From NCBI GenBank assembly GCA_029269125.1, contig JARHXX010000008.1:62001-126000 (forward strand): 64,000 bases of DNA, read 5' to 3'. This document shows, one piece after another, positions 13,752-37,198 of the stretch. Source of the DNA: Kiritimatiellaeota bacterium B1221. Lineage in GTDB: Bacteria; Verrucomicrobiota; Kiritimatiellia; SS1-B-03-39; UBA6053. The translations under genes and the position numbers were made by a program. The stretch's first letter is position 1, and each line of letters begins with the position of its first letter. The notes under the pieces were generated by a model. It saw nothing but the letters and a program-made list of their open reading frames with translations. It did not search any database and was not told where the DNA came from.

Positions 13752-13885
13752 AGCCTTCTTCTTAAAGAACTCGATGTAGGATTACGAGAAAGCACATTGC
13801 AAAAATCATCGTCACCAAACAGAGGATACCGAACTTTTCCCCATAAGGCTTGCGAAGCGGATGCTTTCCCTTTAGCCAAGCTTCT

Positions 13886-16800: not shown

Positions 16801-17542
16801 GGGTGATTCGTGTGCCGTGAAACTTTTTTCAAATGCGAATGAGGCCGAAGCCGCCTGGCAGGATGCCGTTTTACGCTTATATAAAATTCAAGAGCGGGAC
16901 CGCATCCGCTATCTGCAAAAACAACTTCCGCTGTCAACTCACCTTCAACTTGAGTTGTCTCTCCTCCCCTCCGTGGGCGAAAACGCGCTGGAGGATTTGG
17001 TGGATGCGGTATGCCGTGAAGCCCTTCAATTACATCATTCCTGCCCCCGGGACGCACAGGACTTTGCCCGCAGAATTGAGAAAGCCCGAGGGGAACTGTT
17101 TGAGATTGCAGGAAAAATCACCGGAAAACTTCAACAGATCTTACAAGACAGAAGCGAAGTGCAAGCACACATAGACCGTCTTCCCGATGGACCTCTCCGC
17201 AGCGATTTGGAACTGCAGGCGGTAACCTTATGGTCACCCGGCTGGTGTGCGGACCCGGTTTGTCTGGAGCGGTACCCTAAATATATCAAAGGAATCGCAC
17301 TGCGCATTTCGCGGGCAAACCAGGGACCGGACAAAGACCGAAAAAAACAGGAGAGTTTGGAACCCGTCCTTGCACGGTTTGCCAAACACTCTCCCGCCTT
17401 GACTTCCGGTCAAGTCCGACAGGCTTTTCTCAAACTCGAAGAACTCCGGCTTTCCTTATTCGCACCCGAATGCAGACCCCATGAAAAAATGAGTCCCCAA
17501 CGGTTCGAGCGCTGGTTGGCAGAAGCGGTGTCTTTAAAATAG
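13886..17542 (+). CDS. hrpA: ATP-dependent RNA helicase, HrpA family (DEAH)
   Basis: HrpA-type helicases unwind RNA and rescue stalled ribosomes. The protein of about 1218 residues has Walker A GDTGSGKTT (about 38-46), motif Ia TQPRRLAA, DEAH in IIDEAHERS, SAT, and motif VI with SARQRRGRCGRTGPG, then the helicase-associated domains and a long DUF3418-type C-terminal region as in E. coli HrpA (1300 residues). No ATG precedes Walker A, so the start is a GTG at 13886 or a TTG at 13850; GTG is preferred. Its end overlaps the convergent exopolysaccharide gene by 9 bases with no terminator between them. Confidence 0.93.
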   Translation: MNSSPLPFEISYPEELPVSQRREEILEAIRENQVVIICGDTGSGKTTQLPKMMAEVMGEAPGRIGVTQPRRLAATSMASRVAEECKVSLGGAVGVQVRFENRTSPQTKIQFMTDGLLLAQLPTDRDWNAYSAFIIDEAHERSLNIDFILGCLKNILPRRPDLKIVISSATLDAERFSTFFHDAPVLQVEGRLYPIQDESLPPEPERDLSIQDRVWESLQHLEREHGDLDTLIFLPGEREIRDCTQKLSGRYQGKAEILPLFARLGAKEQQKVFKGSNRRRIILATNVAETSLTIPGIRAVIDTGQVRIQRFHPQSRIQRLMTEQVSRASARQRRGRCGRTGPGVCLRLYSDEDLDRAGEFQDPEIRRSSLAEVILRMTVLGLPPIQKFPFIDPPKGAAVSEGYRTLFDIGAMTDKRKLTRRGRLLASFNLEPRLARMLEEGHEEKVLPAVIVCAAFLSIQDPRERPADKSEAADRAHGLWKDPESDFAGVLNMWNAVCEASVSRSRRSKFCRQHFLHPRRTEEWLNLVDDLRETCHKHHWQVPKSIGELELLDTEGLHRSILAGIPRSVGEREENQQFRSPGGQIFRVFPASATAKKPPRWIMTFTLMETSQLWARECAKLDPQWIEDVASHLCKYNYERPVWNAKRGFVEAEERVSLGQLTLRAGKRIHYGRIDPAAAREIFIRDGLIPGKIQMQHPSCKKYLKLLGSLENWEKKLRRPGLFLGTETFYHYFNRILPETICTQKDFQNWAAGERWVPGIDDLLEGESLDTQAYPDRIVVNGCKVKLNYHYCPEDPDRDGIHLTVREHDLASLPNELLEWTIPAWLPEKVMALIRSLEKPLRIQCNPVKKCSEDAITWFHQQNFVYSHSLHQALASFLAARLNCILAAPDLHPDSLAPYLKNTLVVLNEDGKKVYQGNSFPGQQELSTQRGPVRSKATDEWMVDSCTSWPEIPIPQTHEIRGRTYWPALCDQGDSCAVKLFSNANEAEAAWQDAVLRLYKIQERDRIRYLQKQLPLSTHLQLELSLLPSVGENALEDLVDAVCREALQLHHSCPRDAQDFARRIEKARGELFEIAGKITGKLQQILQDRSEVQAHIDRLPDGPLRSDLELQAVTLWSPGWCADPVCLERYPKYIKGIALRISRANQGPDKDRKKQESLEPVLARFAKHSPALTSGQVRQAFLKLEELRLSLFAPECRPHEKMSPQRFERWLAEAVSLK

Positions 17543-20500
17543 ATAAACCTTTGAGGGGACTTTCGGACGCGTAACCGAAGGCATTTGCGGTTGAGCTGCT
17601 TCCGTGGTTTCGGGTGCGGGATCAACCACGCCTTCGGCGATCGCCGTCACTTCTTCAGCAGAAGCCGCGGGATCTCCCTCCGTCGTCACCTCAAGTGCGG
17701 CTTCAGATGCCTCTCCCGTTTTCGGGTTCACCACCTCCACCTTTTTCACCCGTGCAGGTGGAGGCGGCGCCAGGCTTTCCAAACTTGGAATAATCGGGGT
17801 TTCAATGTTCGTGAAGTCTACCATTTCAAACGTTTTGGTCTCCCGTTTTCCTGCGGTTAAACTGAGGATACTCCCCAATTCACGCACTTCAGCAATGCCC
17901 CCGTGAGAATCCACCCGGATAACCAAAAGTCCGATTCCTGTACCCACAAGGTCATCCTCCATTTGAGCGAACCATTCTTCATCCGGCATTCGGGGAAAGT
18001 CGAGGGTGAACCCCTCCACTTTACTCGCCTTGGCCAACTCAACCAATTGCTCCACTTTGAGCGTTTTTACCGAACTTGAGCGGATCAGGGGGTAGAGACG
18101 GATTTTATAATACCGGGTCAACAGCCGGACACCGGGTAAGTCAAAATCGATTTCTGATCGAAGATCGCCCTTCACATCCTGGAAAAACCAATTCGGAGAA
18201 AATACCGTTAGTTCGGTACTGTTTCCTTTAAGTTTGTCGACCAGAACTTCATCCACGCCTTCTTCCATAAATCCACGGTATAATCCGATGTTTATCGGCA
18301 AGGGGCCACCTGCCACTTCCCGAACCAACGCTTGGGCCATCCCGAATTGCGGAGACCAGGGTGCCAGACCCCACCAACCCAAATTCATATCTTTGGGGAT
18401 GAGAATCGGCGCGCCGAAAGCCGGACGTCCATCCAGATAACCATAGACCGCTTCCCCCCGCACTTCCAATCGTAATTTAACCCGTTCCAGGGGACGTTCC
18501 CATTTCCGGGTTTCATTGGTAACCACGACATTGTTATGCCAAATTTGCAGGTACAATTGACCGTCCGATTCAAATCCGAAACGAATCATATTCCCTTCAG
18601 AACGACGGGCGTAGAGCCAAAAGAAGCCACGCGCCTGTTCCAGCTCCACTTCCATGAAACCGCTCCCCATGGTATCCGATCCTTTGAGAACCAGAGCCGC
18701 TTCAGTAGTGGTCGGGCTCGCACCAAGGAACAAAGATCCTATTTCTTCCTGACGTGTCGGTCCGTTGGCATTCCACCAGTTGTCCGAGGCACCGCCACGT
18801 TTGAAATTTTCACGCACCACGGTTTCGCGGGGGACCAATAATCTGTACAATTCGCTTTTAGGTCCTTCCTCCATCGCCCGTTCCGTAATCAAATCCATCA
18901 GGTACCAGGATTCAGGCCATTTCAAAAGATCGTAAGATTTAACGGTCCGGGCAAAATGCTCATACATGCCCAAACGCCGGCCTAACCGGTTAATGGTATG
19001 GATATTGTCCATCCGTTCCCGGGAAGTGGAAAGCAGGGGATGCATCAATGCCAACGCCGTGAGGTCATCAGGATTTTGAGTCGCCACTTCCTGAATGCGC
19101 TCTCCGGCCGCCTTGGATTGACCCTGCCGTAAATACAGGCCCGCCTGGGCCAGGCTAATATCGGAATTCTCCGGGAACAGTCGATGATACAGACCCAGTA
19201 ACTGGGCCGCCTCATCCTGTTTGTTCAGGAATTTTTCCAATATAATTGCGGTGTTGAGTACCAAGTCCACCTGACCGGGGTCCAGCTCCAAACTTTTCTT
19301 GTAGTAACTCACTGCCGTAAAGTATTCCTGATTGCGTAAGTACACATCCCCTACCAGTCGCAAAGGCTTTTCATTGTAAGGCTCGACCTCACTCCACCGG
19401 GACCAAACCGAAATCGCATCGTCAAATTCGCCTTCGTTGTAGGCATCAAAACCTTCTTCCCACAAAATGCGACTCCGAACTTCAGTATCCCAAATTTCCT
19501 GGCTGGCATCTCCGCCGGTCAGTTGGAAATATAGCGGATACTCTTCACGGGGGAAATTCGTGGAATCCCACACAACCAACCGGTCATTGGTTTCCTTAAA
19601 ATCCGGGTTGCTTTCCAGAGTCTCATCCGGTGAAGCAATCTTCAAATTTTTCAATCCCTGAAGCAAAGAATTGATGGAATTCGTACTGGCCAGTCCACGG
19701 GGCAAAGAAACAATGAGCTCCAGACCCTGACGTTCCAGCGCTTTACTGGTGTTCTGAATCCAGGTGGTCACCCGGGAGAGGTTGCCCGCCCCCTTCAGCA
19801 ACGAAAGATTGCAGTGCACACCGTCCACGCCCGCATTTTTGGCCCGAAGCGAAAGTTTTTCCGCCGTGGCCATGTCCGTGGCATCAATGCGTTCTACGAT
19901 GATCTCCGGCATCAGCTTCATGTTGTACACATTTGCAAGTTCACGGTAAAAGCCCGGATTCCAGGCCGTCTGTTCGGCCCGTCCCTGATCTCCAAGCTGC
20001 ATCCAGGGAGGAGACAAATGGGTGTAACGGTACCCATTCCGTCCTAACCAGGCAGCCAAATCCGGTAAGCGTGAGGGAATCGGCACCCAAGTCAGCATCC
20101 GATTATAGAAAGGCAACACATCCAACTCCAGCAGGTCAAAGGAGGCATCCCCCATCTGAGGATCCCAAACACTGATACCGAGAATCCCCGGATCCGCTTC
20201 CCCCCGCGTCTGGATAATTTCATCGAAAACGGGTTCACCACCCGTCGTCGCAAAAAACTGATTCCCGCGGAGATACACTTCTAAATGAATGGAGCCATCG
20301 GGTTCCCGACGGTAGCGGGAAGTCCCCAAAGTAAACGGCTCAAGACCTTCATGCTTTTGCCGCAACCAGACTTCCCCTTTGTCACCCAGTCCCAGATAGA
20401 GGAATGACTCCCCATCTTTAGACGCACGTAACAGAAAGCCGACCTGCCCCTTTTCGATTTTGAGTTTAAATTTTCCACGGAAGTCGCGGTATAAATCGGT

Positions 20501-21685
20501 ACCATTCAACCAGACTTTTGAGCCGGTATTGTCCTCAAGCGCATGCAGAGTGGCTGAATCCCCGTTTAATTCGAATCCGCCCCAGTCCACCTGCCATGCC
20601 AAAGGATCCGACATCGCTTCCGCATTGGTGACACCGGATTCACGCGGCCATGCGGATTCCAGCTGTTTTAATAACTCATCAGCGGACCACTCCGGGTTCA
20701 CCAACAGCCGGTTCAACCGCATGGGATCGGATTCATTGGTATTCAATGCCGCATTCCCATGGATGAACGCCATATCATAAAATTCATTTACCAGCGACAT
20801 ATTCAATCGGCGGGTCAACTGGGCGCGTTCGTCATATTGACCGAAGTCCCCATAAGGAAACGCAAAAGCAATGGGGGGCTCTTTGGTTTCTTTGAGAATT
20901 TGTTCATACACAAATTCATGGTCCTCATGAAGCCGTTCCTGATATTCCAAGGGGGTTTCATAACGATTTTCGGACGTGATCCACCGCGGTGAAGTTAAAT
21001 AATTTTTCAGACGACCTTCACGGTCTGCCACGATACGTTCGAACCCGAGATGGCTTTGCGCACCGGCCTCCCAGGCACCGGTACCGATCATGGCACGGAT
21101 ATACGGCCAGCGGAGTGCCGAGGGATCTTCATCCAAAATAGGTTTGGTCCAAACAAACATCACCGCGTGCCACCCTAATTTTTGCAAAATTCTTCGCGCA
21201 TCAAAATAAGAGGATTTACGGGAATGGTCAAAGGTGAGTAGAATTGCGTTTTCAGGCAGAGGCGTGCCTTCCTCGTAAAAGGCTTTGATCTCCTCCAGGG
21301 TGATCGCGTTGTAGCCCTTCTCTTTTAAAAGCTTCATCTGCTCTTCGAAACGCTCAGGTGAAACCTCGGTGGGAATATCAGAAATACCCTCGTAGGAAAT
21401 TGCCACAAATTCCATCGAGTTCCGTTCCCCCACATCTGCGGGCCGGAAAGCCAACATCCGTATCAAAGCATAACGAATCGGAATCCCCCACGCGACAATC
21501 AGACAAACCACCAACAAGAAATACAACCAGGCCTGTTTGTAGTTGGCCTTCATCACCGCGACACGTTCCGGCACCACCGGAGGCTCGCGGCGGAAGGAAC
21601 CCCGACCGTGACTTTCCGTAACGTGGTCGTCATGTGACTCTTCGAAGGAAGATGAATATAAATGTGGATCTTTTTCTGAACTCAT
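17534..21685 (-). CDS. Membrane-anchored PgaB-like protein: NodB-type deacetylase, glycosidase-like, TPR and beta-sandwich regions
   Basis: The 1383 residues run: cytoplasmic tail, one membrane helix (about 50-72), a polysaccharide-deacetylase-like domain (about 90-330), a LamG-like beta-sandwich (about 370-505), a PgaB C-terminal glycosidase-like region (about 530-700, with GVDGVHCNLSLL), TPRs (about 750-900), a second beta-sandwich (about 980-1110) and a Pro/Glu/Ala-rich tail. Motif 1 of the deacetylase reads TFDHS instead of TFDDG, and motif 2 (QSHLGFER) lacks the second histidine, so activity is doubtful; FPYGD is kept. It follows the glycosyltransferase gene with an ATGA overlap. A periplasmic scaffold, polymer-binding or hydrolytic role in exopolysaccharide export is the best inference. 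Confidence 0.75.
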   Translation of the reverse strand: MSSEKDPHLYSSSFEESHDDHVTESHGRGSFRREPPVVPERVAVMKANYKQAWLYFLLVVCLIVAWGIPIRYALIRMLAFRPADVGERNSMEFVAISYEGISDIPTEVSPERFEEQMKLLKEKGYNAITLEEIKAFYEEGTPLPENAILLTFDHSRKSSYFDARRILQKLGWHAVMFVWTKPILDEDPSALRWPYIRAMIGTGAWEAGAQSHLGFERIVADREGRLKNYLTSPRWITSENRYETPLEYQERLHEDHEFVYEQILKETKEPPIAFAFPYGDFGQYDERAQLTRRLNMSLVNEFYDMAFIHGNAALNTNESDPMRLNRLLVNPEWSADELLKQLESAWPRESGVTNAEAMSDPLAWQVDWGGFELNGDSATLHALEDNTGSKVWLNGTDLYRDFRGKFKLKIEKGQVGFLLRASKDGESFLYLGLGDKGEVWLRQKHEGLEPFTLGTSRYRREPDGSIHLEVYLRGNQFFATTGGEPVFDEIIQTRGEADPGILGISVWDPQMGDASFDLLELDVLPFYNRMLTWVPIPSRLPDLAAWLGRNGYRYTHLSPPWMQLGDQGRAEQTAWNPGFYRELANVYNMKLMPEIIVERIDATDMATAEKLSLRAKNAGVDGVHCNLSLLKGAGNLSRVTTWIQNTSKALERQGLELIVSLPRGLASTNSINSLLQGLKNLKIASPDETLESNPDFKETNDRLVVWDSTNFPREEYPLYFQLTGGDASQEIWDTEVRSRILWEEGFDAYNEGEFDDAISVWSRWSEVEPYNEKPLRLVGDVYLRNQEYFTAVSYYKKSLELDPGQVDLVLNTAIILEKFLNKQDEAAQLLGLYHRLFPENSDISLAQAGLYLRQGQSKAAGERIQEVATQNPDDLTALALMHPLLSTSRERMDNIHTINRLGRRLGMYEHFARTVKSYDLLKWPESWYLMDLITERAMEEGPKSELYRLLVPRETVVRENFKRGGASDNWWNANGPTRQEEIGSLFLGASPTTTEAALVLKGSDTMGSGFMEVELEQARGFFWLYARRSEGNMIRFGFESDGQLYLQIWHNNVVVTNETRKWERPLERVKLRLEVRGEAVYGYLDGRPAFGAPILIPKDMNLGWWGLAPWSPQFGMAQALVREVAGGPLPINIGLYRGFMEEGVDEVLVDKLKGNSTELTVFSPNWFFQDVKGDLRSEIDFDLPGVRLLTRYYKIRLYPLIRSSSVKTLKVEQLVELAKASKVEGFTLDFPRMPDEEWFAQMEDDLVGTGIGLLVIRVDSHGGIAEVRELGSILSLTAGKRETKTFEMVDFTNIETPIIPSLESLAPPPPARVKKVEVVNPKTGEASEAALEVTTEGDPAASAEEVTAIAEGVVDPAPETTEAAQPQMPSVTRPKVPSKVYLF

Positions 21686-23139
21686 GATTGTGCTCCCCGG
21701 GTACCCCAGCTACGGGTGGCCAATGTAATTAGCGCGTAATAAATCTGCCAACTGAAGAAAAGAATATAAGTGGCGGTAAACACAAATCCTGCCCACCAAT
21801 GGGTACGACCTGTTTTTTGCAAATGGTAAAGAGACCAGATCAAGGTTACCGCAAATACACCGAAAATGTAGGACCCGGTAATTGCGCCTTGTTTAATGGG
21901 ATTCAAAATCAACGCCTGAATCATAATCAAGGGTTCCACAATAGGTAAAATCATCATCAGGTACCACGACAGGGCCGGCACCGGGTGCTTCTTCCAAAGA
22001 AATTTTGAACCGGCAATAATCCCCCGAATCGAAGAACGCATCCAACGGGCCTGCTGACGGATATACACCCGCCAGCTTTCCGGAGCAATCGTGGTGGCAA
22101 GCGCTTCATCATCATAAAGAATCTGATAATCCTGCAACACCAGGTTGGTGAGACTCCGGTCATCTCCGTAGTTTCCTTCCTGGCCAAACACTTTTTCATG
22201 CATCCACTCATTCAATACATGCAATACGCAGGCACGCCGGTAGGCGGAAAAACAGCCCGGTAGACAACTCACCGTCCCGTGCACACTCTCCGCCGCTTTC
22301 ATAATCTTGTATGAAAAGAAATATCGAACGTCCTGCATTTTGGTCAGTACATTCGCTTTGGCATTGTCCACGTCAGTATGACCGGCAATTCCCCCTACCG
22401 TGGGATCCACAAATCCCTGCACCAATTTTTCTACCGCACCCGGCATAAGAAAGGTATCGGAATCCACAAACACCATGATTTCACCATGTGCCAACAGAGA
22501 GGAAACCGCCATTCCATAACAGAGACCACGGTTCTCTTCGAAATCCACCACCACCAAACGCGGAAAGGCGGCCTGGGCACGATACATTTCCAACAGCGTA
22601 TTGTCCGTAGACCCGTCATTCACACAAATAACTTCCCGCAAGTGATCCGGATAACCTTCGGAATAAATTCGGGCAATCGACCGTGCAATCGACTCCTCCT
22701 CGTTCATGCAGGGAACCAACACACTCACCTGCGGGGTGAATCCTACCCGGGGCGGCGGTGTATAAAAAGAAGCCAGAATAAAACGGGATACAATGAACAA
22801 CCCTACAATGAAGGAATAAATATTCACCACAGGCGAATAATAATAATGTTCAATATTGATGATCTGAAAGTAAACCGCAAATGCGAGAATCATGGTACCA
22901 ATCAGCCCCAGCCCCAAAACCAGCCACCGGGGGGGACGACGGTACAGCGACTTGATATGCGCCTCCACATCTTCTTCGACCTCCACCTTTTCCGGTTCGG
23001 GCATTTGAATGGGCGTATGACGCAACGCGTCGTGGCAAAAGGGACACACCACAGGTGAAGAGGATTCTAAAACCTGCACGCTAATTTTACATTTGGCACA
23101 GCGTGAACGTGTACCGGTCTTGGGGGGGGAGGCAGTCAT
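21682..23139 (-). CDS. Family 2 glycosyltransferase (PgaC/hyaluronan-synthase type) with N-terminal zinc ribbon
   Basis: This 485-residue membrane enzyme is the probable polymerase of the locus, making and secreting a beta-linked polysaccharide. It shows membrane helices at about 72-92 and 105-125, a GT-A domain with SVLVPCMNEEESI, VNDGSTDNT, DSDT (about 228-231), a GDDRSLTN acceptor motif and QQARWMRSS (QxxRW, about 360), then four more helices. This order matches PgaC/IcaA/NodC. Unusual is the N-terminal four-cysteine ribbon (CAKC and CPFC, residues about 14-35), not typical of PgaC. Substrate sugar is probably UDP-GlcNAc by analogy only. ATGA overlaps join it to both neighbours. Confidence 0.88.
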   Translation of the reverse strand: MTASPPKTGTRSRCAKCKISVQVLESSSPVVCPFCHDALRHTPIQMPEPEKVEVEEDVEAHIKSLYRRPPRWLVLGLGLIGTMILAFAVYFQIINIEHYYYSPVVNIYSFIVGLFIVSRFILASFYTPPPRVGFTPQVSVLVPCMNEEESIARSIARIYSEGYPDHLREVICVNDGSTDNTLLEMYRAQAAFPRLVVVDFEENRGLCYGMAVSSLLAHGEIMVFVDSDTFLMPGAVEKLVQGFVDPTVGGIAGHTDVDNAKANVLTKMQDVRYFFSYKIMKAAESVHGTVSCLPGCFSAYRRACVLHVLNEWMHEKVFGQEGNYGDDRSLTNLVLQDYQILYDDEALATTIAPESWRVYIRQQARWMRSSIRGIIAGSKFLWKKHPVPALSWYLMMILPIVEPLIMIQALILNPIKQGAITGSYIFGVFAVTLIWSLYHLQKTGRTHWWAGFVFTATYILFFSWQIYYALITLATRSWGTRGAQS

Positions 23140-25529
23140 CGCTTTTCCATTTCCGGGGTGTTATCAAGATAAATCACAGTGTCGGGTCCTGCGTCTTCAA
23201 AAAGGGTTGGAGAGAGGCGGCTCGCATATTCCAGGGACAAAGTTTTCACCCGCCGGGGACCGGCAAAGACGCCGATATTTCCACAAAGCTCGCGAAAGGA
23301 GGCTTTTCCTGTTTTGTTGTCCAATAAAATAAAATGCAGGGTGATACCGGATTTCATCACCATCCTTTGCGCTTGTTCCAGCCATTCAGGTTCAGGCATC
23401 CGTTCCACCAGTAAAGTAAATCCGTCCAGGCGCTGCTCCAATGCAATTTTTCCCAGCGCCTCTAGATCGAGTGCCCGGTAAGAACGTACCCGGAGCATGG
23501 GCAAAAGCCGCATCCGATAATATCGGGACATTAAACGCAATTCCTCATCTTCTTCAAACTTCAGACGGGTCAAATCTCCGCGGTCATCCTGCGTGAACCA
23601 CTCGGGGGCAAGCGTGGATAGCTCCGAGGCCAATCCTGTTAATTTTTGGGACAGGCCCCCGACCTTGTTCTCGGAGGGTCTGCTTAATTCCTCATGGGGA
23701 ATCAGCCCCAAACGAACCGGTAACGGGCCGCCGGACACTTTACTCACGGTTACACTCGCCGTTCCCAGTTTTGCCGACCAGGGCGCAATCCCCCACCAGC
23801 CCAAGCCCATACTTTCGGGAATGGTTACCGGCGAACTGAAAGCTTTTTCCCCATTGATGTACCCCATGGCGCCATCACCCTGTAATTCCAAACGAAGCAC
23901 CGCATCCCCGGGTAAACGGGACCAAATGCGGGTTTGATTATTGATCAGGCGGTCATTCATCCACACCTGCAAATACAGCTGTCCATTGTCCGCAAATCCG
24001 AATCGAACCATATTCCCCTGTCCACGACGGGCATACATCCAAAAGTAACCCTGGGAATCATCGATCCACGCCTCCACAAATCCGTTGTGCATGGAATCAG
24101 AGCGTTTTAAGCGAAGGAAGGCTTCGGCCTGTGTCGCATCCGCACTCAGGACCATGCTCCCCCCTTCCTCGAAAACTTCCTGGTGTGAAGAAATCCAATT
24201 GCTCGACAAACGGCCAATACGGAAGTCTTCCACCGTAATAGTATCCCGCGGCAAGAGGCTCTCAAACAGGATCCGCTGCTCGGCGGAAGGCGACTCGCCC
24301 GCCATGCGGTAAATGAAATCCATCAGCACCCAGGATTCCGGACGGGTCAATAAACCATCATCCTTGATCGTATATCCCAAACTCGCTTCCCGCCCCGGCA
24401 GCTGCCCCACTTCAAGCATTCTGAGCATATTCGCATATCTCTCATCCTGATCCCGTAACAGGGGATGCATAATACTCATCGCCTTCAGGTTTTCAGGATC
24501 CATTTCCACCACGGTCTCAATAATTTCCACCGCTTCTTCATAACGGTTTCGGCGGATCAACCATTCGGCTTGAGTCAGCGCCACCCCGCTTGAGGTCGGA
24601 AAAAGCCGCGCAAAATGATTCAGCATTTCTTTGGCCGCTTCCGAATCACCCATCTTCACATCCAGCAAACTGGAAAGACGGGACATCAGCCCAATTTGAC
24701 CCGGCTGCAATTCCAAACTTTTCCGATAGTAGGAAACCGCATTCTCTAAATCTTCCGTGCGTAAATAAAGGTCACCCACCAATGCCACGGGCCGGGGATT
24801 CCGGGGCTCTAAATTGACCCACTGATTCCATGCCTCCAAAGCTTCATCATACTGCCCGGCATCAAATGCATCCCGCCCCTGTTTATTCAAAAGCTGACTT
24901 TGCAATGCCGTATTCCGCACTTCGTTGGTCGTTTGTTGCAGGGACAACTCATAATAAAGTGCCAGCTCAATATCCTGATCCGGGGTGAATTCCGTATTGA
25001 GAACTTCTTCCCGGGACTCCACACAATTTAACGCAATCGAAACCCCGCTAAAAGCCCGGTACGCATGCACCATCAAAAACCAACGACCCGCCCCGGGATC
25101 TTCCAACTGTATCTCTTCAATGTTTCCATTCACATACGGACGGTACTGATACGAGTGAAGTCCGGGAACCTCTCCCTGACTTAAATACATATCCGCATCC
25201 CCCTGCCCCCCCGACATGGCAAGCCCCAGCCGAATCAGTTTGTCCCCCACTTCCAGCGGAATGACGATGCGGGCTCCTGCAGGCGCAGACAAATTTTCCA
25301 GTTGTTGACCGCATTCGAGAATATCCGGATAGGTGAAAATTTCCGTTCCCTGAATTTTATACTGGCGGGCCTCGTCTTGGTCCATCCAGCTTTTAACCTT
25401 CACCGGCTCGGATGGAGGCTCCAAAATCCGCCCCGTGTCTCCCGCTCCGGGAGGGGGGGACTGCGCCAATAAAGAAGTTCCCGCTGCAATTAACAAGCCT
25501 GCAGACATCCGTTGTACATATTTGTTCAT
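23136..25529 (-). CDS. Secreted TPR and beta-sandwich protein of the exopolysaccharide locus
   Basis: The 797-residue protein has a signal peptide (about 1-22), a PPC-like beta domain (about 50-165), TPRs (about 195-375), a LamG-like beta-sandwich (about 440-590) and a C-terminal domain. From the TPRs to the end it is a clear paralogue of the C-terminal half of the 1383-residue PgaB-like protein: both have FW(L/M)YARR, GNM(I/V)RFGF, GQLYLQ(I/V)W, LGWWG(L/I)APWS and GGPLP in the same order. No catalytic motif is recognised. It probably binds polysaccharide or scaffolds the export complex in the periplasm. Overlapping ATGA junctions join it to the GT2 and GHL10 genes. Confidence 0.72.
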   Translation of the reverse strand: MNKYVQRMSAGLLIAAGTSLLAQSPPPGAGDTGRILEPPSEPVKVKSWMDQDEARQYKIQGTEIFTYPDILECGQQLENLSAPAGARIVIPLEVGDKLIRLGLAMSGGQGDADMYLSQGEVPGLHSYQYRPYVNGNIEEIQLEDPGAGRWFLMVHAYRAFSGVSIALNCVESREEVLNTEFTPDQDIELALYYELSLQQTTNEVRNTALQSQLLNKQGRDAFDAGQYDEALEAWNQWVNLEPRNPRPVALVGDLYLRTEDLENAVSYYRKSLELQPGQIGLMSRLSSLLDVKMGDSEAAKEMLNHFARLFPTSSGVALTQAEWLIRRNRYEEAVEIIETVVEMDPENLKAMSIMHPLLRDQDERYANMLRMLEVGQLPGREASLGYTIKDDGLLTRPESWVLMDFIYRMAGESPSAEQRILFESLLPRDTITVEDFRIGRLSSNWISSHQEVFEEGGSMVLSADATQAEAFLRLKRSDSMHNGFVEAWIDDSQGYFWMYARRGQGNMVRFGFADNGQLYLQVWMNDRLINNQTRIWSRLPGDAVLRLELQGDGAMGYINGEKAFSSPVTIPESMGLGWWGIAPWSAKLGTASVTVSKVSGGPLPVRLGLIPHEELSRPSENKVGGLSQKLTGLASELSTLAPEWFTQDDRGDLTRLKFEEDEELRLMSRYYRMRLLPMLRVRSYRALDLEALGKIALEQRLDGFTLLVERMPEPEWLEQAQRMVMKSGITLHFILLDNKTGKASFRELCGNIGVFAGPRRVKTLSLEYASRLSPTLFEDAGPDTVIYLDNTPEMEKR

Positions 25530-27799
25530 TTCTTTTCCCGGGGGCTGTATGCCTTACTTAAAACTGGAGCCAACTCACTCGCAAAAGAGGGGTTCAACTG
25601 AAAGAGGACAAAACCGTTTGCCCCCAATTCCGACGCCGCAGAGATTTGGGTTAAAACCTGTCTGGGACTTAAGCGGCTTTCCGATGAATCCACACCAATA
25701 CCCACCATAAGCTTTGCTGAATGGCCAACAAGCTTTCGTTGCGTCACGATCCATTTTTTAAAATTTTTCACGTTTTCGGTATAGTTCATAACTACAATAA
25801 AGTCGAGTAAACCTTTTTGATTCCAATGCGTCCAATTTTGTCCAATACGTTTTTGTGACACCTCAAGCGAAGGCCAAACCGCCGCCGATAAGTAAATATC
25901 AGGAAAAACATCCTTCATTACAGTTGATACCTTTTCTACAAACAGATCAATTTGCAAGGCCTGCCACTCTAAAAATGCCGGGTGTTGCGGCCCTCCCCGC
26001 AGGGCTGCGGGCCAATCGACCTTTTTTCCCAGGCTCTTTTGAAAGGCATCTTTACACGCCGCACAGGCACAGGGCTTGCTGTCCTGCCAGCGGACATAAT
26101 CCAAATGAACCCCCCGAATACCATCGGTCTCTGCCAATACGAGAATTCTCCGGATTTCGGATTCCACGTTTTCCGGACGCGAAGGACACAGCCAGGGCAT
26201 CGCCTCTCCTGTTTCTGAGATTTGCAACAAATCTTCCCGCGCATATCGGCGCAGGGTGGCAGGAGAATGTTCAGGCAATGACCAGCAGATATGCCAGGCA
26301 TGCACCGCAACCCGCCCTTCGGCCGCCCGCAGGACCCGAATCGGATTGCCACGGTTTCTCGGCACATACACAAACAAGTCCGTTATACCTGCATTTTCCA
26401 AAATCTCCACAGTCGTCTCCCAGTTTTCCGACGCCAGCCCCTGACCACTCGCATCCCATATCCCCCGCATCTCAAATGCCGGTGCCTCAAAATTTTCCGC
26501 GTTAGCCACATCCGCCTGACGGTTCATCTCAATAAACTGATCCCAGGCCAGAAAAGGATGCCCCGCATCTAAAGCGGTTTCAATTTCGGACAGCTGCCTT
26601 GCCGTTTGGGGGTTCACCTCCCCCGGAGAAACCGTCAAACGAAAACGGGATACCCGACGTTTTACCGCCGTCTCCGCGACATGCATTTCGGGCAGCAATT
26701 CATCCAGCAGGCCCGCAAGCAGTTGACGTTGCTCAGGGCTGTCATCCTGAGGCAGCACCGTCGAAACCCAGAGGGCCCGGTCAGAACGGACAATTGCGGA
26801 CTCTTTTTGGCGACGGCCGGAACGGTCCACCCATTCCGCTAAAACCGCAGCCCGATCTCCGGGCGAAACCGGTAGAATATTTCGGGTGGGCATCCGTACC
26901 CGGGCCGGCCCCTGCCAGGATGCATCCGTAAATTTCACTGCATTCCACTTCTGCTCCGAATTCGAACTTAAATACCGGCGAAGTGAAAATCCGCAACTTT
27001 CCGCCAGTTCCGGGGATGCGGAATAAAAGACCATGACCTTTCCTCCATCCTCCATGTATCTGGCCAGGGATTGTAACAGGGCCGGAGAAGGATACGCATT
27101 ATAAGGAAGAATCACACAATCAAATGCTTGTAAATCCGCAGAGGAAGCCTTGGCATCACTCAACCTCCGGGTCGCAATCCCCATTTCACTTAACTGCCGG
27201 GCCATCCAGGCGGCACGTTCAACTCCAAAGGCCTGCTCCGAAGGATTTAAAGAACTTGCGGCATCCGGGTCCACCACCAAAATGGGACTCTTCACCGCCG
27301 CAAGGCCATACCATTGAAATGCGCCCTCTCCCGCCTCACCTTTCCAGGGGGAAAGCCGAACACCATCCACCGCTTCCCAACCTTGCGGCTGATCAATTTC
27401 CTCAAAATTTTCAAACGGGAGAAATACAGATTGCAGACCTTCTTTCACGGGAAGATAGCTCGCATACCATCCCGCACCGCTTTTGAGATACAAAGTCACG
27501 GCGCGCATGGACTGCAGATTTTCCAGGCGGTAGGTGATCCACAACCCATCCCGCTCCGTCCAATTCTCAGACAGGGATAAATCCCAGTAAACACGATCCG
27601 TGTTGCCATCAAAGACACAGGGAAAGCGCAATCCAATCCCCGTCTGAACCGCTAACGGACTTTCCGGAGAAGCTTTCCAGACGGAAGCATCAAGGGTCAA
27701 ATCATCCGCGAAGAGGAAAAAACCCAGAAAAAATGTGAGGAAGACCGTCGAAATGAATTCGAACCGCTTATTCCCACATGTATTTTTCTTGATCTTCAT
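25526..27799 (-). CDS. GHL10-like secreted glycoside hydrolase
   Basis: This protein of about 757 residues starts at MKIKKNTCG with a signal peptide (FISTVFLTFFLGFFLFA). An N-terminal beta-rich, carbohydrate-binding-like region (about 25-155) is followed by a ThuA/GATase-like segment (about 160-260: ILVVDPDAA, VILPYNAY, DGGKVMVFY). The C-terminal 320 residues match the GHL10 hydrolase-like TIM barrel, with MRGIWDASGQG, GIRGVHLDYVRW and VVMNYTEN. Families of this type are thought to act on polysaccharides and PgaB carries a relative. It may trim or process the polymer. An upstream in-frame ATG at 27832 is possible. The start overlaps the small membrane protein gene. Confidence 0.74.
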   Translation of the reverse strand: MKIKKNTCGNKRFEFISTVFLTFFLGFFLFADDLTLDASVWKASPESPLAVQTGIGLRFPCVFDGNTDRVYWDLSLSENWTERDGLWITYRLENLQSMRAVTLYLKSGAGWYASYLPVKEGLQSVFLPFENFEEIDQPQGWEAVDGVRLSPWKGEAGEGAFQWYGLAAVKSPILVVDPDAASSLNPSEQAFGVERAAWMARQLSEMGIATRRLSDAKASSADLQAFDCVILPYNAYPSPALLQSLARYMEDGGKVMVFYSASPELAESCGFSLRRYLSSNSEQKWNAVKFTDASWQGPARVRMPTRNILPVSPGDRAAVLAEWVDRSGRRQKESAIVRSDRALWVSTVLPQDDSPEQRQLLAGLLDELLPEMHVAETAVKRRVSRFRLTVSPGEVNPQTARQLSEIETALDAGHPFLAWDQFIEMNRQADVANAENFEAPAFEMRGIWDASGQGLASENWETTVEILENAGITDLFVYVPRNRGNPIRVLRAAEGRVAVHAWHICWSLPEHSPATLRRYAREDLLQISETGEAMPWLCPSRPENVESEIRRILVLAETDGIRGVHLDYVRWQDSKPCACAACKDAFQKSLGKKVDWPAALRGGPQHPAFLEWQALQIDLFVEKVSTVMKDVFPDIYLSAAVWPSLEVSQKRIGQNWTHWNQKGLLDFIVVMNYTENVKNFKKWIVTQRKLVGHSAKLMVGIGVDSSESRLSPRQVLTQISAASELGANGFVLFQLNPSFASELAPVLSKAYSPREKK

Positions 27800-28244
27800 C
27801 CGAAGATACATCCACCTGCTGATCCAAACCATCGGGTCTCACCTTTCGGAAGAGAACCGGCTGATCAGACTTCTTCGGATTCACAAGATCTTCAGGAGGG
27901 GTAGAAGATTTTGCCACCGGAGCCGGACGGGGAGTCGAGCTGCTTCTGCTGGAGCTCTTCGGCGAAGTGGAAGCCCGGGGAGAAGAAGCACGTGGAGAAG
28001 ATTTATGCGGCGGAACCGAGGACCGGGCAGGATGCGTAGAGCGGCCCGGGCGGTGAGACTTGGCCGGACGAAACTGCATGGACTGATCTTGACGCTGGGA
28101 TTTTTCAAGCTCCTGCATGTGCCGCTTCCGCGTACGGGAATTGGTGTAGGCACCCAAGCCAAAAATTAAAGCGAGCACCGTGGCAATGACACCGGTTACA
28201 CCAAGGAAGTCTGTATTAATTATTTGTGCGAGTGAAAGATACAT
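27768..28244 (-). CDS. Small membrane protein with disordered basic tail, function unknown
   Basis: The 158-residue protein has one N-terminal membrane helix (about 14-33, VTGVIATVLALIFGLGAY), then a basic Ser/Pro/Arg-rich tail (about 35-130) that is surely disordered. The composition of the tail resembles that of the KaiC-like ATPase encoded divergently. AAAGGGA just before the ATG is a good ribosome site. It is the first gene of the exopolysaccharide operon and overlaps the GHL10 gene. I do not recognise it; an assembly or regulatory subunit is possible. Confidence 0.6.
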   Translation of the reverse strand: MYLSLAQIINTDFLGVTGVIATVLALIFGLGAYTNSRTRKRHMQELEKSQRQDQSMQFRPAKSHRPGRSTHPARSSVPPHKSSPRASSPRASTSPKSSSRSSSTPRPAPVAKSSTPPEDLVNPKKSDQPVLFRKVRPDGLDQQVDVSSDEDQEKYMWE

Positions 28245-29845: not shown

Positions 29846-29865
29846 ACCTTTCGCACGGAAAACTT

Positions 29866-30832: not shown

Positions 30833-33800
30833 TCAGAAACGATACAGAATACTTCCGATCACATTGTGTTCGGTGTAAGCCTTGGTTGCATTCACCAGGA
30901 AAGAACCATTGACCTCAAGTCCCCAATCGAAAGTCTTGCTGATATTCGCTGAGAAACCAAGCAATTTGTTCCAGCCCTCATCCGGGCCTTCACCCGCGGA
31001 AAATCCGCCTTGTTCCGCCGCAGTCACCTGAAGATTTAAATACTGCTGCACATCTTCATCACGCGCCTTTTCTTTCTGAAACCCGAGGTGACCCCGCAAA
31101 GAGGTGGTGAGCCCCGGATAACTCCGGCGAATTTCCATAATCGCAAAATGCCGTTGTTCCCAATAGGGCGTCCAATATAAATCAGAAGCCTCATCCGTGG
31201 TACTGATTGAATGATGCAGTCCGGCCCAGAAATCCAACTTTTCAGAAATCATCCAAAGATTTTCCAGTTCCCCGTTCACGAAAGAGTTATTGTCATCGTA
31301 AAACGAGAAGGAACCCACTGCGGTCGCCTGCCAATAATCCGTAACCCGCCATATCGGACGGAAAGCCAACTGATCATAAGACACCAACTCAATTGCGGAG
31401 GGGACCACGCCGTGGTTAAACGCAGCGGTAAAATCCATATTAGGGAAAGGGCGCCACTGATGCTCCACCCCGTAGGTGACCTCCTCCTCCTTTTCCGCAC
31501 CATTGCGTTTCGGATCCAACGTGAATAATCCTCCACGGAAGATGGTGAAAGCGCCGGTATCATGAATGTAACTAATCAACCCTTCCTGACGTGAGAAGTC
31601 TGCTTCATAATCCAGAGTGTTCACAACATTGGATTGGAAACTGACATTGTTTGAAAAAGAGCTGCTTTCCTTAATTTGGAAATTTTGACCGTTGATCACC
31701 TGGTTAAAGGTCCGGCTGGCAGAACCCACCTGTGTCGTGGAAAGTTCGATCACCTGGTTTGTGGGACTGTTAAAGCTCTGCTCAATCTTACCTTCGGATG
31801 CCCGGATTTGTAAGGTGATTCTCCGATTCAGATTGATCCCTGCAAACACCCCGATTTCCTCTTCGTCAATCAGTTCATTGGAACGGACCGTCCGGCCGTC
31901 TGCACCAATATAGAGATCTTCGAGCTCAATGTAATCCGATTTTTCACGTCGCTTGTCACCCGCGGCCGTATCCTCTACCGCATCCGGCAAACGAACCAGA
32001 CTGGCCAAGTGACGGTCCACATATTTTGTCAGTTCCCGCAGATCCTCTTCAGGATATCCGTCGCGGCGCAAGAGTTCCACATTTTCCATGGCCATTTCAT
32101 AACGTCCATGCAATGCGGCAATCTCCGCACGCATTCTGCGTGCCACAAACACCGGATGCTGCAAATAGGCCTGACGTAATACATAGCGGCCGGAGGCATG
32201 CCGATAAGGCTCAAAACGTTTGTACATTAAAGGATTGTCTCCTTTCACCGCATATCCGAACCGATTCTGTAAAAATCCTTGATCATAGGCAATTTCAGAT
32301 TCATTCAAAATCACATTGGTCACATCAAACAAATCAATATTCGTGGTGTTCTCCTGACCAATTTCACCGTAGGGATAAGCCACAGAATTGATTTCCTTCA
32401 ACGGAATATCCAGTTCCATCGCCAATACTCTCCGGGATTCGGAAAATTCTTTGCGCAGGCGATCCTGATATTCCTTCAGGGTTTCCATTCTTTCCTTTTC
32501 CTTTAACCAAATCCGGTTCGGAAGCGGTAGACGCATTTTCTTTTCGTCTTCATCAATCGCAGCCAACTGGCCGGCATCCCACAGATGACTTTGAATTTCC
32601 CAGCGTCCGGTTGCGAAATATTCCCGGATTTCAGGGAAGTGTGCCACATAACGCTGCATACGGGACAATACATCCCCCACTCCGACAAACATGGTGAATT
32701 GAGTGTCAATTTCATCCGCAACCATGGTGCCGTAACGGAAAGAGTTCCGGAGACCGTCATCAAAAGTTACAATCACTTTCTTTTCCGGTGAAAAATCACT
32801 CAGTACTTCCGTATCCTCTTCTTTTTCCGCAGTCCACGAATACTTCACAGACTGCACCATGCGGTTTAACCAGGGCCGGTCCAGCTCCGCGGGAGGCGGC
32901 TCTTCACTTTCATCAAAATAGGCGGGCAGTTCGGAAACCGTCATGAACTCAAATCCGTCACGACGCAAGGCCATCACATGCTCACGCAATTGGCGGACCG
33001 AAGGCATGTCTGAAAACTCACTGGGAGAAATACCATGATACAACAAGGTAAATACGGCACCGCGCGCCCCTTCCCGTTCTAATCGTTCCAGCGCCTTCAT
33101 GGCCAATTGGAAATCACCGCGGGCAAAATGGATCCGTGCCCAATACACATGCCGGAAAGGATTCTCTCCGTTAAACAAACGAAGATTTTCCACCAACTGA
33201 TCTTCCGCCTCATCCACCATGGAACGTCCCAAAAAGGTTTCCATTTTTCCGTAACGGGCACGATCATTATGCGGATTTAAATTTTCGAGAATGAAATCAA
33301 ATACATCCGCAGCCGCGGCAAATTCTTTTCCGCCCACCAAAGCTTCGGCATAAAACAATGCGGACCCCACATTGTTTCGATCCAAATCCCAAGTGTCTTT
33401 CCCCGCGGCAATCACTTGATCACGACTGAACACAGCCGGATTTTCAGCAAAAACCGCATTCATGAAGACCGCGATTTGCTGCGACACCTGAATTTTATTT
33501 TCGATATCCTCAACGTTATTCTGCAATTCTCTCAAGCGGGAAATGGTTTCACGCGGACGGTTATTGCGAACCGATAATGCGATCAAAATATTCATCGCCT
33601 GCAAATTTTTCGGCTCCACTTCCAACGCGGCATAAGCATCCGCTTCCGCTTCCGGCAACATCCCCATCAACAGATACACATTCGCCCGGGCAATCAAAAA
33701 TCCGGCATGGCCGGGGATGACTTCCAAAATTTCATTCCAATGTTCGAGACTTTCCTCGTACTGCTCATTGCCGTACAAACTCCACGCCAAATCAATCTGA

Positions 33801-34678
33801 ATATCTGTACGTTCCGGATCTTCCGCAAACAGTCTGGAGAAATGTGTGATCGCTTTTTCACGCTCGCCCCCCCACAACAATACCTGCGCCAAGCTCACCC
33901 GAATTTCAAACTGAGAGGGGTTCAGCTCCAAACTTTTCTTATACAGTTCACGCGCTTTTTCGAATTCCGCATCCCGGGTCGCCACCTGCCCCATCAAATT
34001 GTAGCCCATGGGCTCGTTGGGAGCGATTTCAACCAGACGGGTCCATAATTCAATCGCTTCATCTTCACGATCCGTCAGCCAATACGCCCAACCCAAGGTT
34101 TCCCAGGCACCCAGCAAAGCCGGATCCTGCTCTAATACCCACTCTAATTTCGGAATGGCTTCCTCATATTTTTCATCCTGCACATTCACCATGGCTTCAT
34201 ACATGGTTTTCCGGGCAGTCGAAACATTAATGGCATCCTCCACCACTGAAGGCTCTTCTTTCTCCACAACTTCTTCAAGCGCTTCTTCCGCCTCCACCAC
34301 TTCCCCGTCCACCACCTTGATTTCTTCAATCACAGGTTCTTCTGCCACGGGTACTTCAACCACGGGTTCCTCAATGACCGTCTCCACAGCCTCTTCAACC
34401 ACAACCTCTTTTTCCGCCTTCTTTTCATCGGCCGCTTTCACGGGTTTTTCTTCAACCACAATCTCTTGCACCCCGATCGCAACCGGTTCAGGCTCTTCTT
34501 CGACGGCTACCAACTGTAAATCAACAGACTCCAAGATCGCAACTTTCTCTTCCCTGTCCTCAATCGGCTTGCTGACGTTTCCGTTTCCAACCTCAACAAT
34601 TTGTGCGGTCAGCGGAAGCATCCATCCTACACCCGAAAGACATAGGAGACGAAAGAGAAAATGTGATTTGGATTTCAT
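30833..34678 (-). CDS. Fusion of TPR, NodB-type deacetylase and C-terminal outer-membrane barrel (PgaA/PgaB-like)
   Basis: The 1281 residues run: signal peptide (about 1-26), a Glu/Val-rich low-complexity stretch (about 30-150), a long TPR region (about 155-490), a polysaccharide deacetylase domain (about 630-860) and a strand-rich C-terminus (about 920-1281) ending SILYRF, as outer-membrane barrels do. Deacetylase motif 1 is intact (VTFDDG, about 636-641) and YPYGE is present, but motif 2 reads SHLWDAG with no second histidine five residues on. In E. coli TPR-barrel PgaA and deacetylase PgaB are separate proteins. Here export and modification appear joined. It closes the MBOAT/SGNH operon. 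Confidence 0.82.
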   Translation of the reverse strand: MKSKSHFLFRLLCLSGVGWMLPLTAQIVEVGNGNVSKPIEDREEKVAILESVDLQLVAVEEEPEPVAIGVQEIVVEEKPVKAADEKKAEKEVVVEEAVETVIEEPVVEVPVAEEPVIEEIKVVDGEVVEAEEALEEVVEKEEPSVVEDAINVSTARKTMYEAMVNVQDEKYEEAIPKLEWVLEQDPALLGAWETLGWAYWLTDREDEAIELWTRLVEIAPNEPMGYNLMGQVATRDAEFEKARELYKKSLELNPSQFEIRVSLAQVLLWGGEREKAITHFSRLFAEDPERTDIQIDLAWSLYGNEQYEESLEHWNEILEVIPGHAGFLIARANVYLLMGMLPEAEADAYAALEVEPKNLQAMNILIALSVRNNRPRETISRLRELQNNVEDIENKIQVSQQIAVFMNAVFAENPAVFSRDQVIAAGKDTWDLDRNNVGSALFYAEALVGGKEFAAAADVFDFILENLNPHNDRARYGKMETFLGRSMVDEAEDQLVENLRLFNGENPFRHVYWARIHFARGDFQLAMKALERLEREGARGAVFTLLYHGISPSEFSDMPSVRQLREHVMALRRDGFEFMTVSELPAYFDESEEPPPAELDRPWLNRMVQSVKYSWTAEKEEDTEVLSDFSPEKKVIVTFDDGLRNSFRYGTMVADEIDTQFTMFVGVGDVLSRMQRYVAHFPEIREYFATGRWEIQSHLWDAGQLAAIDEDEKKMRLPLPNRIWLKEKERMETLKEYQDRLRKEFSESRRVLAMELDIPLKEINSVAYPYGEIGQENTTNIDLFDVTNVILNESEIAYDQGFLQNRFGYAVKGDNPLMYKRFEPYRHASGRYVLRQAYLQHPVFVARRMRAEIAALHGRYEMAMENVELLRRDGYPEEDLRELTKYVDRHLASLVRLPDAVEDTAAGDKRREKSDYIELEDLYIGADGRTVRSNELIDEEEIGVFAGINLNRRITLQIRASEGKIEQSFNSPTNQVIELSTTQVGSASRTFNQVINGQNFQIKESSSFSNNVSFQSNVVNTLDYEADFSRQEGLISYIHDTGAFTIFRGGLFTLDPKRNGAEKEEEVTYGVEHQWRPFPNMDFTAAFNHGVVPSAIELVSYDQLAFRPIWRVTDYWQATAVGSFSFYDDNNSFVNGELENLWMISEKLDFWAGLHHSISTTDEASDLYWTPYWEQRHFAIMEIRRSYPGLTTSLRGHLGFQKEKARDEDVQQYLNLQVTAAEQGGFSAGEGPDEGWNKLLGFSANISKTFDWGLEVNGSFLVNATKAYTEHNVIGSILYRF

Positions 34679-34696: not shown

Positions 34697-35383
34697 TTAT
34701 TTATACAGGGCCTTATCGACGGCTTCCGCCACCCGATCAGCTCCTGCACGGCTTAAATGTACACCATCACTGGCACGCAATTGAATCATTTTTCCCTGCG
34801 GGCTGATAATATTGGCGGAATACGTATCTTTTTTACGTCCGAGAAGATTCCTTGTGGGGAAAAATGTGACCGCATCGCGTTTATCGGCTTCAATTTTAGC
34901 CAAGCGGTTCACAATATCGACATTGGCAGTAATGTCACTGTCTCTCATCACAGGCAGCTCCAACCAAATCACCTTCCCGCCTTTGCTTGAAAGTTTGTCC
35001 AGTACCTCACCAATGCGGCGGGCATACTCGTCTTCCCAGTTGGGGTCCGCAATGTTCACAATTCCCGTTGCCGTTTTCATTGCCTGACGGTCGTTGGTGC
35101 CAAACCATACAACAGACATATCCGGATTAAATTCCGCAACCAATCCGTCGATTTTTTCCATCCAGTCATATGCATCTAGACGCGCAAGCCCTGAACCCAA
35201 AGAGGTTTGAGATTTGGTGGTCACTTCAGGATGCTTGTCCAAAGCCAATGTCAAAGCATGTGCCGTCACCCGCATCATGGAATCGCCCACAATAAGCACA
35301 CGCTCAGGTTTGTCCGCTGCACCGGCATGAAGACCCAGACCGATAAGACCGCTCAGTAATACAATTTTAAAATAATTCTTCAT
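34697..35383 (-). CDS. Secreted SGNH-hydrolase-like protein, putative polysaccharide O-acetyl transfer or esterase
   Basis: The 228-residue protein has a signal peptide (LSGLIGLGLHAGAA) and the SGNH blocks GDSMMR (about 32-37), FGTND (about 93-97) and the catalytic DGVHLS near the C-terminus. This layout resembles DUF459-type and AlgJ/AlgX-like partners of MBOAT O-acyltransferases. It lies 8 bases after a small membrane protein gene and near an MBOAT gene, which supports a role in O-acetylation of the locus polysaccharide in the periplasm. It could instead be a deacetylating esterase. Confidence 0.83.
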   Translation of the reverse strand: MKNYFKIVLLSGLIGLGLHAGAADKPERVLIVGDSMMRVTAHALTLALDKHPEVTTKSQTSLGSGLARLDAYDWMEKIDGLVAEFNPDMSVVWFGTNDRQAMKTATGIVNIADPNWEDEYARRIGEVLDKLSSKGGKVIWLELPVMRDSDITANVDIVNRLAKIEADKRDAVTFFPTRNLLGRKKDTYSANIISPQGKMIQLRASDGVHLSRAGADRVAEAVDKALYK

Positions 35384-35391
35384 AAATTTTC

Positions 35392-35661: not shown

Positions 35662-35708
35662 AATGTACGTATAGTGCGTGTGACTCAGGCAAAAAGAAAA
35701 AAATCGTG

Positions 35709-37157
35709 TTAAAACTGGAAATATATGAATGGTGCGACGCCTTTAGGGCCCAATCCTAACACCGCGACAAACAATACTGCAGCCAACACCCCCTGCGCGA
35801 CAGGATGCATCCGCTCAAATTTGTTCCAAAGCTTTTCACAGCGGGATCCATCCAGTAATTGCGCCAAATACCCCACCCCTATCACAAAAACCACACTCCA
35901 GGTGAGCAACTCCACCGGCATGTCCCAGTTCCCCAGGGTCTTTAACATCCCCCAGGCATGCCCGAAACTCTGTCCCCGGAAAAACAGCCAGGAAAGACAA
36001 ACCAAGTGCCAAACCGCCACCCGGCGGAGCACCCCCGCCACCGGCCCGTCCCATTGTATATTCCGGGCAGCCAAAAATTTTCCTCCCCACCTTTCAACCG
36101 TCAAATAGATACCATGCAGAGCCCCCCAGGCAATAAACGTCCAGCCCGCCCCGTGCCAAAGCCCTCCCAATAGAAATGTAATCATCAAATTCCGGGCCAC
36201 CGTTCCCTCGCCTTTTCCCCGTGAGCCCCCCAACGGAATATACAGATAATCCCGCAAAAACGATGACAATGAAATGTGCCAGCGGCGCCAAAACTTCTGA
36301 ATGGAATCCGCCAGGTAGGGTGCATCAAAATTAATCGGGATATGGAACCCCATCAATAAACAAAAACCGATCGCCATGTCAGAATATGCAGAAAAATCAC
36401 AATAAATCTGAATGGCATATCCGTAAATAGCAAACAGAGTATCTGCGGCCCCGTAGAATTCGGGATTGGCAAACACCGGATCGACAATCCGCTCGGAAAG
36501 AAAATTCGCGATCACGACTTTCTTAAACAATCCACCCAAAATCAGCGCGGTCGCCCGCCCCACATCCAGGGTTGCAGGAACCCTGGGTTTCGCCAGCTGC
36601 CCGACCAAATCGATCGCTCTCACAATCGGTCCCGCCACCAACTGCGGAAAAAAGGCCAGATATAAGGCAAAATCCAATAACGAATCCGCCGTTTTCATCC
36701 GTCCCCGATAAACATCGAATACGTAACTCATGGCCTGAAAAGTGAAAAAGGAAATCCCCACCGGCAATACAATCAAACTGACAAAATCAGATCCGTCCAT
36801 CCAGAAATTGTAATTGGAAATCGCTCCTAACTTATTTCCCACCCAAAAAACCTGATCAAACAGGAAATTTGCATATTTAAAGAACGCGATACTCCCGATA
36901 TTCAAAATGACCGCAATTACCAGTAACGCTTTTCGGGTATGCGGATTTTTTGATCGTTCAATCCCCACCGCACTAAAATGGTTCAATAAACTCGATCCCC
37001 CCAATAATCCCAAAAAACGCCAGTCCCAATATCCGTAAAAAAACCAGCTCGCTGACAACATGACCCATTTCCATACCGTCACCTGCTTGCGCAACGCCCA
37101 GCAAAGCGAAAAAACGAGCAGAAAAAAGAGTGCAAAATCAATGGAGGTGAAATTCAT
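35709..37157 (-). CDS. MBOAT-family O-acyltransferase (AlgI-like)
   Basis: The 482-residue polytopic membrane protein has about ten hydrophobic helices. It keeps the PIVRA and QIYCDFSAYSDMAIG segments and the catalytic-histidine motif LGGLWHGAGW (about 330-340), all typical of AlgI/DltB/PatA enzymes that move acyl groups across the membrane to polysaccharides. The ATG at 37157 is preferred over a TTG two codons upstream. It is followed by the small membrane and SGNH genes, the usual partners for alginate or cellulose acetylation. Probable donor is acetyl-CoA; the acceptor is the exopolysaccharide of this locus. It lies 41 bases after folC. Confidence 0.93.
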   Translation of the reverse strand: MNFTSIDFALFFLLVFSLCWALRKQVTVWKWVMLSASWFFYGYWDWRFLGLLGGSSLLNHFSAVGIERSKNPHTRKALLVIAVILNIGSIAFFKYANFLFDQVFWVGNKLGAISNYNFWMDGSDFVSLIVLPVGISFFTFQAMSYVFDVYRGRMKTADSLLDFALYLAFFPQLVAGPIVRAIDLVGQLAKPRVPATLDVGRATALILGGLFKKVVIANFLSERIVDPVFANPEFYGAADTLFAIYGYAIQIYCDFSAYSDMAIGFCLLMGFHIPINFDAPYLADSIQKFWRRWHISLSSFLRDYLYIPLGGSRGKGEGTVARNLMITFLLGGLWHGAGWTFIAWGALHGIYLTVERWGGKFLAARNIQWDGPVAGVLRRVAVWHLVCLSWLFFRGQSFGHAWGMLKTLGNWDMPVELLTWSVVFVIGVGYLAQLLDGSRCEKLWNKFERMHPVAQGVLAAVLFVAVLGLGPKGVAPFIYFQF

Positions 37158-37198
37158 AGGCAACTCTTATAGATACCCTGCAAGACTTGTCAATCCTA

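Follow-up and report, generated by a model that had tools for sequence, protein, structure and literature searches.

On the reverse strand of the window (the whole 64,000-nucleotide stretch of DNA analysed here, from Kiritimatiellaeota bacterium B1221) lies a recurring gene set comprising a GT2 synthase, a pseudo-deacetylase (P0001), a pair of MBOAT and SGNH proteins and a fused exporter (P0002), whose coordinates are given in Table 1 together with those of the domains and motifs discussed below. At its 3' end, P0001 shares nine bases (17534-17542) with the 3' end of an ORF on the opposite strand (13850-17542, +), which encodes an HrpA-like helicase. The two parts of the cluster are separated by genes for a KaiC-like ATPase and an XrtA/PEP-CTERM-type AAA ATPase (28808-30711, +; TIGR03015, 1.2e-28), and a 1390-aa protein with bacterial Ig or cadherin-like repeats is encoded at 40543-44715 (-).

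Table 1. Features of the P0001/P0002 locus, in window coordinates
Feature	Position	Strand	Basis
P0001, pseudo-deacetylase protein, 1383 aa	17534..21685	-	ORF, profile matches, AlphaFold2 model
P0001 hydrophobic membrane anchor, aa 50-80	21446..21538	-	hydropathy only
P0001 PgaB-like deacetylase fold, aa 87-346	20648..21427	-	model and VIA-align to 3vus
P0001 motif 5 region, YEGIS; Glu99 in place of the His	21380..21394	-	
P0001 motif 1, TFDHS, aa 151-155; His154 in place of the metal Asp, Asp153 retained	21221..21235	-	
P0001 motif 2, AQSHLGF; Gln210 and Phe215 in place of the two metal His residues	21041..21061	-	
P0001 CBM66/concanavalin-lectin-like domain, aa 349-530	20096..20641	-	model and VIA-align
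P0001 TIM-like domain, located where PgaB has its hydrolase domain, aa 540-710	19556..20068	-	model
P0001 TPR repeats, aa about 740-880	19046..19468	-	profile matches
GT2 processive synthase (NodC/PgaC/hyaluronan-synthase-like), N-terminal Cys pairs	21682..23139	-	profiles, motifs
PPC + TPR protein, paralogous to P0001 over the C-terminal half of the latter (40% identity)	23136..25529	-	
GHL10-type glycosidase-like protein	25526..27832	-	profile match
P0002, 1281 aa: TPR, PgaB-like domain, PgaA-like beta-barrel	30833..34678	-	
P0002 PgaB-like domain, aa 545-845; YHG, TFDDG and first motif 2 His kept	32144..33046	-	
P0002 outer-membrane beta-barrel, aa 920-1281	30836..31921	-	VIA-align
SGNH (DUF459, PatB-like) O-acetyltransferase-like protein, GDS and DxxH kept	34697..35383	-	
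MBOAT acyltransferase; the SGNH protein is its probable partner	35709..37163	-	

The GT2 protein contains the motifs NDGST, VDSDT, GDDRS and QQARW (QxxRW) as well as membrane helices, and it matches NodC (2.1e-45), PgaC (7e-36) and hyaluronan synthase (3.8e-23); two N-terminal, zinc-ribbon-like CxxC pairs precede the helices. Because of its resemblance to these three enzymes, the polymer is probably HexNAc-containing. Pairs of MBOAT and SGNH proteins are known from O-acetylation systems such as PatA/PatB and AlgI/AlgJ, and the pair in the window resembles them in its arrangement as neighbouring genes of a polymer operon; unlike them, however, it adjoins a pseudo-deacetylase and a fused exporter. 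The SGNH protein matches the NCBIfam PatB family with 4.9e-24, under the family cut-off. The SGNH (DUF459) and MBOAT pair (34697-37163) recurs across the class, SGNH genes being found in 32, MBOAT genes in 29 and both in 26 of the fetched loci examined.

The sequence-only reading had assigned a degenerate deacetylase domain to the P0001 gene, and the ORF, the likeness of the domain to PgaB and the TFDHS motif are all confirmed. From the N terminus, P0001 consists of a membrane anchor, the PgaB-like domain, a lectin-like domain, a TIM-like domain, TPR repeats and a C-terminal stretch, the last being 40% identical to the neighbouring PPC + TPR protein. TIGR03938 matches aa 106-344 (4.3e-26) and PF01522 matches with 4.3e-6, and the protein stays below the NCBIfam equivalog cut-off for PgaB (91.4 versus 321.9 bits). 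An AlphaFold2 model of aa 84-735, computed from 61 aligned relatives, reached a mean pLDDT of 88.2; in it, the deacetylase domain superimposes on the N-domain of E. coli PgaB (3VUS) with Z 29.6 over 244 aa at 2.6 A (VIA-align), the fold being of the NodB2 type, and the second domain superimposes on the CBM66 structure 4azz (Z 18.5, 157 aa, 2.8 A). Alignment of 4f9d to the model over 4-626 gave an rmsd of 17.3 A, so that the placement of the domains relative to each other is loose. In the TIM-like domain, an Asp found in 35 of the 61 rows is replaced by Asn626 in P0001 of the window. The protein thus shares with PgaB of E. coli and Bordetella (CE4, NodB2 type, TIGR03938) the N-terminal fold, a later TIM-like domain and an adjoining PgaC-like GT2 gene, but differs in lacking the metal ligands and the motif 5 His, and in having the lectin-like insert between the two domains, the TPR tail and the N-terminal membrane anchor.

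Alignment register was taken from HMMER against PgaB (3VUS), from hhalign against intact relatives and from a 152-row MAFFT alignment, and all three methods agree that every one of the three metal ligands of PgaB is absent from P0001. The second motif 2 His of PgaB is H189. The CE4 family is characterised by a His-His-Asp triad and motifs 1-5, as described in PMC10967932, and D115 and H184 have been reported as metal-coordinating residues of PgaB (PMC13366581). Motif 2 is aligned without gaps by HMMER, hhalign and MAFFT alike, with Gln210 at the position of His184 and Phe215 at that of the second His. The loss of the second His had been noted from the sequence alone, and this holds; the first metal His had been assumed to be kept in the "SH" of motif 2, a register which we reject, being two residues off by each of the three methods. 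The His concerned, His212, lies two positions downstream of the metal-His position and is not conserved. Room had also been left for another residue completing the triad; at the level of sequence, no Asp, Glu or Cys is newly conserved, and the only newly conserved His, His256, is located on a helix and also occurs in some intact relatives.

P0001-type relatives were found in 85 of the 288 genomes searched within the class, both degenerate groups and genome G037 included, and most of them belong to Kiritimatiellae/Verrucomicrobiota. A search of the phylum gave matches in 44 of 387 genomes, 40 of these in the class, with only weak matches outside it. Among 80 homologous domains, collected because they resemble the window and with near relatives each counted, 78 are devoid of any metal ligand; the metal Asp, the first His, the second His and the motif 5 His are each kept in a single domain. 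The metal-Asp position is occupied by Q, H, N, G, R, L or A (and one D), with His in 21/80, and the motif 5 position varies widely as well. At the catalytic-base position, an acid is conserved in 78/80; the motif 3 Pro (80/80) and the Arg of the RYE type (71/80) are conserved too. Not included in these domain counts are three P0001-type rows that were short or frameshifted (one from L159 and two from L067), two partner rows of less than 250 aa and a single partner-type row from L230. As the cause of the degenerate motif, a local event, be it of sequencing or of decay, was considered and rejected, since the loss is common to nearly all homologous domains. One locus (L107) carries a tandem pair of P0001-type genes.

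A quick tree of 109 rows unites 77 core rows in a single clade (SH-aLRT 96), outside which the intact relatives fall, and a second degenerate group of nine rows, LFEG (support 100), stands beside it. The ligand losses of the two groups may represent one event or two; PgaB_3vus forms a long branch, whose placement is unsure. The intact group consists of eight rows, L239-L245 (among them Anaerolineales, Parcubacteria, Paceibacterota, Colwellbacteria and Elusimicrobia) and L075 from Kiritimatiellae. All eight keep the Asp and the first His; the full triad is present in five of the seven rows L239-L245 and missing in L075. TFDDG is retained in the relatives from other phyla, as is HxxxxH in most of them.

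Purifying selection acts on the P0001 domain. Its dN/dS falls below that of the region following it in all 10 pairs compared, with values of 0.025-0.32 for the domain, some of the synonymous distances being near saturation; between the window and its nearest relative, dN/dS amounts to 0.025 in the domain and 0.049 in the following region.

Of the 65 core genes for which at least 1.5 kb of upstream DNA was available (seven further core genes had too little), 58 are immediately preceded by a GT2 gene, as are 8/8 LFEG and 6/8 intact-type genes. The partner P0002 is matched in 71 of the 74 genomes with a core gene, at a threshold of 1e-20 and with some matches covering the TPR part only. Both types occur together in 71 of the 288 genomes (85 with the P0001 type, 77 with the partner; Fisher p 1.6e-45, related genomes not being independent).

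In P0002, a PgaA-type TPR region and an outer-membrane barrel are both present, and a PgaB-like domain is inserted between them in the same chain. This insertion distinguishes P0002 from PgaA, which it resembles in its combination of TPR and barrel. The PgaB-like domain aligns with 3VUS at Z 26.3, and the barrel with PgaA (4y25) at Z 25.4 (266 aa, 2.7 A), with PelB at Z 23.6 and with BcsC at Z 22.6; the NCBIfam cut-off for PgaA is missed (27.9 versus 366.65 bits). PgaB clades that carry fusions at the N terminus have been reported, as have operons that lack PgaA (PMC7112194); the accessible part of that paper names no fusion of TPR, PgaB-like domain and barrel as in P0002, and the string 'Verrucomicro' has no occurrence in its main text. 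As had been read from the sequence, the domain keeps TFDDG (aa 638-642), and its SHLWDAG (within aa 696-703) is without the second His. The metal triad is thus incomplete, Asp641 and His698 being kept and the second motif 2 His being replaced by Gly703, while the motif 5 His and both motif 1 Asp residues are present. Among 56 partner domains, eight have the full triad and 29 only the Asp and the first His (as P0002); of this pair, six domains retain a single residue and 13 none. Parsimony gives nine changes of the Asp/His pair, at least seven on well supported branches, eight being the safer count because L132_1_2004, scored as lost, is a contig-end fragment. One change, from His to Lys, took place in the window's own genus (L145). 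Several loci (L112, L113, L115, L073, L122, L126, L155) have neither the metal Asp nor the first His in the partner and in the P0001-type domain. Three consecutive genes for TPR-deacetylase-barrel proteins, two of them with dead sites, are found in L134.

Other pseudoenzymes of the CE4 family have been described. Ba0150 (4M1B) has been called a catalytically inert pseudoenzyme, which groups with the MurNAc and not with the PNAG deacetylases, and EcCDA (2VYO), lacking both motif 2 His residues, the catalytic Asp and the motif 3 Arg, is probably inactive (PMC10967932). Both share the deacetylase fold but are described there as single structures, whereas the P0001 family is class-wide and tied to a synthase gene. 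A search of the open-licence literature yielded no report of this family or of a class-wide pseudo-deacetylase with a fused exporter.

We consider it most plausible, with a probability of roughly 0.6, that P0001 is a class-wide conserved pseudo-deacetylase, retained beside the GT2 synthase as a non-catalytic scaffold that is anchored in the membrane and handles polymer. The lectin-like and TPR neighbours of the domain, the GT2 adjacency and the selection on the fold are the reasons for reading it as a handler of polymer. Neutral decay, which would leave the domain a mere relic, might account for ligands lost in P0001 and repeatedly in the partner, yet is scarcely credible in view of the purifying selection in every pair compared and the retention of the domain in 85 of the 288 class genomes. 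The domain could instead mainly activate or gate the GT2 synthase as an allosteric partner and not bind polymer at all, and both the tight adjacency to GT2 (in core, LFEG and intact groups) and the membrane anchor are in line with this; as relatives of the catalytic type are equally GT2-adjacent, however, regulation is not singled out, and the lectin-like domain suggests the handling of sugar, so that we regard this role as unlikely. It should also be noted that an activator role of P0001, be it for GT2 or for the partner, fits the same data as the scaffold reading.

Catalysis might also have been rebuilt. Glu99, Asp153, His154 and His212 of the window lineage might conceivably make up an alternative metal site, TFDH together with Glu99 and His212 providing the new ligands, or the domain might perform other hydrolase or transferase chemistry. 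The frequent His at the metal-Asp position and the nearly invariant catalytic-base acid speak for such a change, but with the metal-Asp and motif 5 positions variable, His212 not conserved and His256 the sole newly conserved residue of ligand type, it appears quite improbable. More weight, even if we doubt it, deserves a division of labour, in which P0001 presents the polymer and P0002 deacetylates it by means of a two-ligand metal site (Asp641, His698). The retained motif 1, motif 2 and motif 5 residues of P0002 and the full triads of some partners argue for it; the Gly at the second His position, the partners devoid of both Asp and His and the repeated changes of the pair argue against it. 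The sequence-only reading had proposed that one copy binds polymer while the other cuts. For P0001, the loss of the metal site and the conservation of the fold are well supported, and the binding we infer. Whether P0002 acts as the cutter is uncertain, because across the class the Asp/His pair of the partner has undergone some nine changes, one of them in the window's genus.

Returning to P0001 as a non-catalytic scaffold, we propose that the whole metal site of a PgaB-type CE4 domain would have been lost in an ancestor of Kiritimatiellae lineages. GT2 would extrude a HexNAc-containing chain, which would be held by the groove of the dead deacetylase, the CBM66-like lectin domain and the TPR region, and would then be passed to the fused exporter P0002 with its TPR, deacetylase fold and PgaA-like barrel, while the MBOAT/SGNH pair may O-acetylate it en route. 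A further-reaching suggestion, which we put forward tentatively and to which we give somewhat less than an even chance, is that the Pga-like machine of Kiritimatiellae gave up N-deacetylation stepwise, on the synthase side class-wide and then repeatedly on the exporter side, with O-acetylation genes in the operon and the fold kept twice as a polymer guide.

P0001-type proteins match deacetylase profiles despite their lost metal site, and caution should be undertaken when annotating them. As judged from sequences and models, the P0001/P0002 system would represent a variant of the Pga-type exopolysaccharide machinery in which the pseudo-deacetylase is class-wide and the exporter fused, and the data suggest that the deacetylase fold now serves the handling of a sugar chain and not its cutting. 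PgaB and PelA couple deacetylation to export, and their chemistry is hard to part from chain handling. In a natural family whose fold is under selection although its metal site is lost, chemistry and chain handling would become directly separable by test.
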